Positions 22,115 to 35,621 of a DNA stretch of 51,642 nt are shown one piece after another. The stretch spans positions 1 through 51,642 of the forward strand of contig NZ_JAMXFA010000033.1 in NCBI RefSeq assembly GCF_025370785.1, read 5' to 3'. The stretch is from Laspinema olomoucense D3b (GTDB lineage Bacteria > Cyanobacteriota > Cyanobacteriia > Cyanobacteriales > Laspinemataceae). The notes under the pieces are model-generated. The model was given only the letters and a program-made list of their open reading frames with translations. It ran no database searches and was not told where the DNA came from. The position numbers were made by a program, and so were the translations under genes. Position 1 is the first letter of the stretch. The number at the start of each line of letters is the position of its first letter.

Positions 22115-22380
22115 GCACCCTAAAGGGTGGGGCGTTTGCGGACGAAACTTCCCCCGCCCCGCACCCTAAAGGGTGGGGCTATATGAACAAAGCCCGCCTG
22201 CGCGGGCTACTCCACGAGTTTGTTGCTATTTGTCAGAGATTTAGGGCAGAAACCCGGTTTTTCGTCTTGGGATGGGGGTTAGAAACCGGGTTTCTTGCAA
22301 TATGTTGTTATCGAGTAGCCTGCGTAGGCAGGCTTTGTTCGTATGCCTCCGGGCTTTCCTTACGGAACGCTACGCGAACA
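22115..22380. repeat. Cluster of dispersed repeats after the amidases
   Basis: The 411-base gap before deoC holds three repeat types. GCACCCTAAAGGGTGGGGC occurs twice (22115-22133 and 22161-22179). AGAAACCCGGTTT with AGAAACCGGGTTTCT form inverted arms at 22249-22295. A TGCGTAGGCAGGCTTTGT unit with imperfect palindromic arms follows from about 22317 to 22380. All three types recur elsewhere in the window. A small open frame here (22183-22428) is just translated repeat. Confidence 0.75.
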
Positions 22381-34598: not shown

Positions 34599-34635
34599 GG
34601 GGCTGTGGCTCAGTTGGATAGAGCAAGCGCCTCCT

Positions 34636-35553
34636 GAAGCATCGGGCACCTTGGAGGAAACTCCAGGAGTGAATGTGGTCAAATTCAAGAAAGCCTAAGT
34701 CTGTTTTCCCCTTTCCAATCGAAAGCCAGGTAACAGATAGGGTAATCTTGAGCCAAGCCTTTGAACGGCTAAACAACAGCAGGCACCGGAAAGAATTGAC
34801 TTTTGATCCGGTCCCCCTCTGATTCGAGCTGTCAAAGGAAGGTGCAGAGACTGGTTTGAGAGAGCCCTTAGAGATGGACTTAAATGTCACATCCAAAGTA
34901 GAACAACGCGGCGTTTTAGTGGGGATGTTATTGGGTCAGGGAAAAAGAAATCAAAACAATTTCTATATTCCCCATCGAGCCACCCAAGAGAAGTACGTTT
35001 TGTTTAAAAAACAACTTCTTGAACAAATCACCCAACAGCCGGTTAGCATCCGACCTCGAACCACCAACCGGGGAGAGGAAATCCTCCGTTTAGAACCGAA
35101 GTTGATTCCCTTAACTCGGGTCTTGGTAAGGAAACTCTATTGCGGCGGGATCAAAACCGTCACCGCTAAGTTTCTGAACCTCTTAACTCCCGCCGGAATC
35201 GCTTTATGGTTTTTAGATAGAGGGTCCAAGTCCTTTAAAAAAAGGAATGGGAAAATTCACGCCCTAGAAGTGTATCTAAACACCGGCCTCTCCAAAAGCG
35301 AAAATGAAATCATTATGGATTATTTTTCGGAAATTTGGGGATTTAAGTGGGGGCTGAGTAAAACTTCGGATGGTTATCGACTCAGAATGGGGACTCAAGA
35401 GGGAAAACGATTTCTCGGTTTCATTACCCCTTACGTCCCGGAGAGTCTACGCTACAAAGTAAAAACCTCCTCAAACGTAACGGCCACCACCTACGGACCG
35501 CAAGTCTAAGGTGAAGGAATAGTCCAGAGAGTGAGGAAACTCACACAAATCTG
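34636..35553 (+). ncRNA. Group I (IC3-like) self-splicing intron in tRNA-Arg(CCU)
   Basis: 918 bases inserted directly after the anticodon. The exon ends with U and the intron ends with G, as in group I introns. Core elements match those of cyanobacterial tRNA introns: P4-P6 region GGTAATCTTGAGCCAAGCC at 34741-34759, P7 5' strand GGTGCAGAGACT at 34841-34852, and P7 3' strand GAATAGTCC at 35517-35525. P2 is capped by GAAA (34654-34665 region), and P9 is GTGAG-GAAA-CTCAC at 35531-35544. The coding sequence sits between the two P7 strands, so it occupies the P8 loop. P1/P10 pairing was not resolved by eye. Confidence 0.9.
34856..35509 (+). CDS. Intron-encoded LAGLIDADG protein with altered active site
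   Basis: 217 residues from TTG 34856 or 211 from ATG 34874. Two-motif LAGLIDADG_2 (I-SceI-type) protein: motif 1 GVLVGMLLGQGKR, motif 2 GIALWFLDRGSK, then LEVYLNTGLSKSENEIIMDYF, IWGFKWGLSKTSDGYRLRMG and FLGFITPYVPESLRYKV, the usual family ending. Compared with the consensus LLGDG and WFMDDGS, the catalytic Asp is Gln in motif 1 and Arg in motif 2, so DNA cleavage is doubtful. The frame is otherwise intact. The 5' end overlaps the intron core, and the stop lies eight bases before the P7 3' strand. Possible role: intron maturase or decaying homing endonuclease. Confidence 0.85.
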   Translation: MREPLEMDLNVTSKVEQRGVLVGMLLGQGKRNQNNFYIPHRATQEKYVLFKKQLLEQITQQPVSIRPRTTNRGEEILRLEPKLIPLTRVLVRKLYCGGIKTVTAKFLNLLTPAGIALWFLDRGSKSFKKRNGKIHALEVYLNTGLSKSENEIIMDYFSEIWGFKWGLSKTSDGYRLRMGTQEGKRFLGFITPYVPESLRYKVKTSSNVTATTYGPQV

Positions 35554-35621
35554 AAGCGCTAGGTCGCCGGTTCAAATCCGGCCAGTCCCGTTCTCTGTTA
35601 GTCTATATTACGAAAACTTCC

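Follow-up and report, generated by a model that had tools for sequence, protein, structure and literature searches.

What does a protein of a homing endonuclease family do inside a tRNA gene once its catalytic acids have been replaced? We addressed this question at a locus of Laspinema olomoucense D3b, within a stretch of 51,642 nucleotides that was analysed as a whole and is referred to here as the window. The initial annotation had described an open reading frame (ORF) at 34856–35509 as a LAGLIDADG protein that lacks both catalytic acids, is otherwise free of stops and frameshifts, and is a possible maturase. The features of the locus are collected in Table 1; residue numbers follow the TTG start of that annotation.

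Table 1. Coordinates of the interrupted tRNA gene, its intron and the encoded protein within the window.
Feature	Position	Strand	Basis or remark
5' exon of tRNA-Arg(CCT)	34599..34635	+	3' end is the anticodon CCT; ARAGORN on joined exons
Group I intron, 918 nt	34636..35553	+	RF00028 match; boundaries the same in 40 genomes
GGTGCAGAGACTGG, P7 5' strand region of the ribozyme core	34841..34854	+	In 40/40 ORF-bearing introns
P7.1 5' strand (GTTTGAG)	34854..34860	+	Just 5' of the ORF; helix positions 4–6 covary
LAGLIDADG_2 protein, 211 aa, catalytic acids replaced	34874..35509	+	PF03161; conserved ATG GAC start
Codon of Q28, first catalytic-acid position	34937..34939	+	Alignment to I-WcaI; orthologue set
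Codon of R122, second catalytic-acid position	35219..35221	+	Alignment to I-WcaI; orthologue set
P7.1 3' strand (CTCAAAC)	35470..35476	+	Within the last codons of the ORF
ACGGCCACCACCTAC, P3 3' strand and start of P8	35480..35494	+	Helix names assigned by eye; encodes the protein's end
GGTGAAGGAATAGTCC, end of P8 and P7 3' strand	35510..35525	+	Motif search
3' exon of tRNA-Arg(CCT)	35554..35590	+	ARAGORN on joined exons

The ORF interrupts a tRNA gene. When the two exons are joined, ARAGORN recognizes tRNA-Arg(cct), and it found no tRNA in the uncut window. The intron is inserted directly 3' of the anticodon (CCT^AA), between tRNA positions 36 and 37, and ends with a terminal G. It matches the group I intron family RF00028 at 34623–35546 with 42.3 bits (E 3.8e-9), which is below the gathering score of 50, and an Rfam scan of the window at the gathering threshold missed it. 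Elsewhere in the window, a single Rfam match, to CRISPR-DR28 at 22186–22209, scored 36.6 bits against a gathering score of 35 and could be a palindrome that arose by chance. No uninterrupted tRNA-Arg(CCU) was found among the 63 tRNA matches of the host genome, and the arginine anticodons UCU, CCG and ACG were identified by ARAGORN on loci covering the listed places. The interrupted gene is the only tRNA-Arg(CCU) found in this genome, although a UCU anticodon may also read AGG. Besides a scattered set of tRNA genes, the genome contains an array of 30 tRNA genes in about 5.5 kb (contig C68, 194000–201000).

The annotated frame is open throughout, and its product matches PF03161 (LAGLIDADG_2) along the entire profile (1–168 of 168) with 124 bits and an E-value of 8e-36, against a curated cut-off of 25, which places it in that family. 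The frame and end of the annotated ORF were retained and its start was not. TTG 34856 is present in only nine of 40 homologues, eight of them from the same genus plus L025, whereas 38 of 40 carry ATG GAC (29) or ATA GAC (9) at the position of ATG 34874, the exceptions being L038 and L039. Judging from this conservation, ATG 34874 is most likely the true start. Apart from a designed protein, the best sequence relative among solved structures is I-WcaI (PDB: 6x1j), with I-SceI a weaker match. Five named records from Laspinema, Oscillatoria and Phormidium contain a close relative of the protein. An AlphaFold2 model computed from six rows about 90% alike reached a mean pLDDT of only 60.7, with residues 1–42 below 50, and we therefore place no weight on its geometry.

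Within the order, 60 of 291 genomes have a match at an E-value of 0.001, comprising 40 close orthologues (at least 44% identity) and 20 distant relatives. A class-wide draw of 388 genomes, the order included, gave four matches at 1e-10, all in the order. All 40 close orthologues are encoded by the tRNA-Arg(CCT) intron, whose insertion site is identical in every one of these genomes. Their frame is unshifted in 37, counting two (L018 and L033) that are some residues short, and shifted in three (genomes G047, G037 and G060; loci L043–L045) at a poly-A run near residue 129; these three were excluded from protein and codon counts, and the introns of G037 and G060 are identical. The run contains nine or ten A in the frameshifted sequences, which represent two lineages, and five to nine in many in-frame relatives. 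The shift may reflect transcriptional slippage or decay. In genus g3, where dN/dS after the frameshift is about 0.9 on eight changes in one pair, the pair looks relaxed and the ORF looks like it is decaying. In three genomes of genus g66 (family f28) the protein is absent and the tRNA is continuous, as checked in the sequence of two.

Comparison with I-WcaI confirmed that both catalytic acids have been replaced. Q28, in the motif LVGMLLGQG, aligns with the D of LIGNILGD, and R122, in IALWFLDRG, aligns with the second D of WFMDDG, so that no acidic residue falls on the metal-binding eighth position of either motif. We take the aligned I-WcaI positions to correspond to Asp44 and Asp145 of I-SceI. 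The Q/R pair occurs in all eight genomes of the genus examined, and likewise in the five named records; given this recurrence, and exons that read as tRNA-Arg(CCT), it is neither chance nor a sequencing artefact. Since the eight rows belong to one genus, they represent one event at most.

Across the 37 unshifted orthologues, the first position is occupied by 13 different residues (Q8, D7, E3, K3, V3, C2, A2, H2, W2, R2, T1, N1, G1) and the second by nine (R17, K8, C4, D3, N1, Q1, A1, S1, H1). The first is acidic in 10 of 37, and a single genome, G215, is acidic at both, with Asp at each. Among 206 well-filled columns, the first position has the highest entropy and the third-highest rate, whereas the second ranks 29 and 37 by these measures. 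On a tree built without these two columns, they require at least 16 and 12 residue changes (ranks 7 and 29 of 206). Thirty columns are invariant, including L25, L26, G27, W118, D121 and G123, some of which adjoin the freely varying catalytic ones. Of these, D121 should presumably match Asp144 of I-SceI and not the metal-binding Asp145.

As a control, 16 distant relatives were aligned by the family profile: eight of the 20 distant genomes of the order, a second ORF of G079, a second ORF of the host genome and six of 16 phage records. Asp is present at both positions in 11 of these 16, compared with one of the 37 orthologues; the remainder are L047 (E/D), L046 and L048 (K/D), L053 (E/R) and L133 (N/R). 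L054 was aligned to the profile with an E-value of 24 for its first stretch. A search for tRNA-Arg exons in L046–L054 found none. L046–L048, from family f32, encode LAGLIDADG_2 proteins that are 33–35% identical and whose motif 1 carries K or E and motif 2 carries D; no Rfam match over threshold was found there. Two Crassvirales phages and another caudovirus (L128–L130) carry LAGLIDADG_2 genes of roughly 30% identity with both Asp residues intact. We set aside carriage by phage or plasmid: a scan of viral contigs that detects close relatives only returned none, no plasmid matched, and the 16 matching phage records are all distant, at below 60% identity.

The protein is maintained by purifying selection. 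The dN/dS comparison proposed by the initial annotation gave an omega of 0.217 over 37 sequences and 204 codons, far from neutral (log-likelihood -13187 versus -13843 at omega = 1), using a purpose-written codon model in which branch lengths were scaled and not refitted. Within four groups, first estimates from IQ-TREE logs gave 0.17–0.22. P(beta<alpha) exceeds 0.9 in 170 of 204 codons, with a median silent rate of 1.23 against a replacement rate of 0.18. The codons of Q28 and R122 rank 7 and 29 of 204 by replacement rate, with P(beta<alpha) of 0.98 and 0.999. Because both evolve below the silent rate, they are relaxed and not positively selected; some constraint remains at each, and neither is neutral.

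The protein has also descended largely with its hosts. The seven host families require seven changes on the protein tree, against a minimum of six, and the sole excess change places family f12 within f28, on long branches. Holding f1, f20 and f28 each as one clade was not rejected (p-AU 0.52, 0.53 and 0.19), and f14 already forms one clade. We found no horizontal spread to allelic sites. Since the tree follows host families so nearly, the protein appears to have been inherited vertically and not by homing. Conservation in seven families and this descent bear out the original argument against simple decay.

Within the intron RNA, the ORF occupies the loop of an extra helix, P7.1, between the P7 5' and P3 3' strands; an alternative placement in the P8 loop was dropped, as ORF-less introns locate the insert at P7.1. 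Of 38 ORF-bearing introns, 35, 34 and 35 have a pair at P7.1 positions 4, 5 and 6, compared with shuffled means of 21.2, 16.9 and 28.6, a contrast that is inflated by related sequences; at position 8, pairing occurs in 22 of 38 and does not exceed the shuffled level. L038 and L039, in which the P3 pattern was not found, were left out of the P7.1 and core counts. The tested P7 motifs are kept in 40/40 ORF-bearing introns and the P3 motif in 38/40, and GGTGAAGGAATAGTCC, with up to three mismatches allowed, was located in each of the 40, at a distance of 44 nt from the end of the intron. In the window, the final codons of the ORF contain both the P7.1 3' strand and P3, so that this stretch codes for protein and forms part of the ribozyme. 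In the two other group I introns matched in the host genome (L057 and L058), which lie in other tRNAs with flanks resembling tRNA-Leu(UAA) and initiator tRNA-Met by eye, P7 seems to pass straight to P3 without P7.1.

Seventeen stretches were chosen among the matches listed for the order. They comprise 12 ORF-less introns of 249–314 nt at the same site, three continuous tRNAs and two unusable stretches (L083, whose sole match had six mismatches and may belong to another tRNA, and L084, with no match). GAGACT of the P7 5' region is present in all 12 ORF-less introns, the ACGGCCACCACCTAC element also occurs in ORF-less introns in slightly varied form, and P7.1 is absent from two (L070 and L078). 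All 12 exceed the RF00028 gathering score (51.6–88.7 bits), and none of eight other ORF-bearing introns reaches it: seven score 32.7–46.5 bits and L014 gave no match at E 0.01. The tested core motifs are present in the ORF-bearing introns, and their low scores are probably due to the insert. The significant match in the window and the passing scores of its ORF-less site-mates identify the host element as a group I intron. These sub-threshold scores, in the window and in all eight others tested, together with the ARAGORN miss, suggest a reason for the lack of annotation of genes of this type. Presence and absence of the ORF require three state changes on a tree of the intron core that is itself poorly supported.

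The start of the ORF is close to the same helix. A Shine–Dalgarno (SD)-like match of at least four bases precedes the start in 22 of 40 introns, and in 19 of these 22 it begins 4–7 nt into P7.1; no such match was found before the start of the window ORF. Nine genomes, from family f20 plus G228 (L014–L020, L022 and L043), have ATA instead of ATG, and AAGGAG lies 8–10 nt upstream in all nine, versus none of 31 ATG-start relatives. Most of the genomes behind this association come from one family, and its Fisher p-value therefore does not count as independent evidence. In L015, L020 and L043 an in-frame stop sits just upstream of the ATA, and a conserved AUA start is therefore likely in the nine genomes.

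Given these properties, we consider the protein to be probably a dedicated group I intron maturase derived from a LAGLIDADG_2 homing endonuclease. A gene that is kept for its protein, at one site, without spread and without catalytic residues must do something else, and since the protein is found only within its intron, splicing help is its most likely job. The suggestion of a maturase is thereby strengthened, by the missing acids and the non-neutral dN/dS, while RNA binding, splicing help and loss of cleavage are what we infer from them. The unspliced transcript of the sole tRNA-Arg(CCU) gene identified would serve as its mRNA; the protein would bind the intron RNA and aid its folding, allowing the tRNA to be made, and would no longer cut DNA. 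In many relatives the SD appears to lie within the P7.1 5' strand, whose 3' partner is located some 620 nt further on, among the final codons of the ORF, so that completion of the fold would mask the site of ribosome binding and shut translation off. Introns that lack the ORF at this site imply that the protein is not needed everywhere, and since they pass the Rfam threshold and presumably splice without it, its help is at most conditional. The ORF-bearing introns retain their P7 and P3 motifs, so any dependence is invisible in the RNA. Several observations count against a maturase, namely the D or E still present at the first position in 10/37, the frameshift in 3/40, the lack of a good SD before the window ORF and the constraint left at the catalytic codons. 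More tentatively, the passage from endonuclease to dedicated tRNA-intron splicing factor may be traceable across seven families of one order, with synthesis timed by the protein's own substrate: the two catalytic positions would be free to vary while the fold is held, and, after folding of the intron, pairing with the final codons of the gene would draw the SD (or start region) into P7.1.

The protein might instead use its binding fold, on DNA or RNA, to repress or otherwise regulate the tRNA gene as an autorepressor or regulator. Conservation and loss of the acids would fit this too, and the LAGLIDADG domain of WhiA is among the fold-search matches to the low-confidence model. However, such a regulator could live outside its intron, whereas all 40 orthologues lie inside it and three f28 genomes with a continuous tRNA lack the protein, and we regard this role as unlikely. 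A nuclease that works by different chemistry, such as a nickase acting through the invariant D121, or an enzyme with one active site where motif 1 retains D or E, would account for the ten acidic first positions and the one genome with Asp at both. It would have to tolerate 13 and nine residues at the two sites while the orthologues share one insertion site, the nearly family-congruent tree carries no sign of homing, and D121 presumably equals Asp144 of I-SceI; this makes it quite improbable.

A dying homing endonuclease, which lost cleavage after the intron was fixed and is slowly decaying, is an expected stage of the homing cycle. The three frameshifts and the dN/dS of about 0.9 on eight changes in g3 agree with it, as do coral cox1 introns without both acids, for which PMC5344465 describes relaxed purifying selection. 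Yet an omega of 0.22 over 37 sequences from seven families, 30 invariant columns, some next to the free catalytic ones, and 37 unshifted frames of 40 disfavour decay, and we judge it very unlikely to explain the gene at large. Finally, the frame might be preserved chiefly for the intron RNA structure that its DNA specifies, as P7.1 and P3 overlap or border its ends, where the silent rate of several codons is low. The codon analysis, in which constraint on replacements extends over 170 of 204 codons, and the existence of introns without an ORF render this explanation barely credible.

Arguments on how a selfish DNA-cutting gene turns into a splicing helper draw chiefly on a small number of organellar examples. 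In the present order, one intron and its protein are common to about 40 bacterial species, beside intronless and ORF-less states, with at least 16 and at least 12 changes at the catalytic positions. The question thereby becomes open to test: one can ask which of the introns are able to splice in the protein's absence, and whether cleavage persists in any orthologue, above all the one with Asp at both positions. LAGLIDADG maturases are already a known kind, as many characterized maturases are degenerate or bifunctional LAGLIDADG endonucleases according to passages of PMC3073962, with further precedent in part of PMC3943268. In the passages covered, PMC5733544 deals with introns of other cyanobacterial tRNAs; those of tRNA-Arg(CCU) are mentioned in passing only. 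Our search of mostly openly readable papers found no LAGLIDADG protein reported in a cyanobacterial tRNA-Arg(CCU) intron and no bacterial tRNA-intron case of this type.

Among solved structures, I-WcaI and I-SceI are the best matches in sequence, the designed protein aside, and in fold. I-WcaI has Asp at both catalytic positions, as I-SceI presumably does, whereas the Laspinema protein has Gln and Arg. The bI3 maturase of yeast mitochondria, which we take to have lost its endonuclease activity and to reside in a cytochrome b intron, offers a possible functional parallel. Like the Laspinema protein, bI3 (PDB: 2ab5) has an intron-encoded LAGLIDADG fold, and it serves as splicing factor of its own intron, according to PMC2813881; in the fold search with our low-confidence model it was a weak match (rank 20, E 0.033). 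The Laspinema protein differs in belonging to a bacterial tRNA intron and to LAGLIDADG_2, with catalytic residues that are hypervariable across 37 orthologues. Coral cox1 intron ORFs have likewise lost both motif acids with Ka/Ks below 1, but PMC5344465 reads them as degraded, with raised Ka, in contrast to the strong conservation over seven families observed here. A bacterial group I intron protein reported to stabilize and activate its intron (PMC3984707) is similar in that respect and differs in belonging to the rRNA intron of a hyperthermophile. Lastly, I-Ssp6803I also comes from a cyanobacterial tRNA intron, that of tRNA-fMet, with its own protein (PMC1995217), but it is an active endonuclease of the PD-(D/E)XK family.
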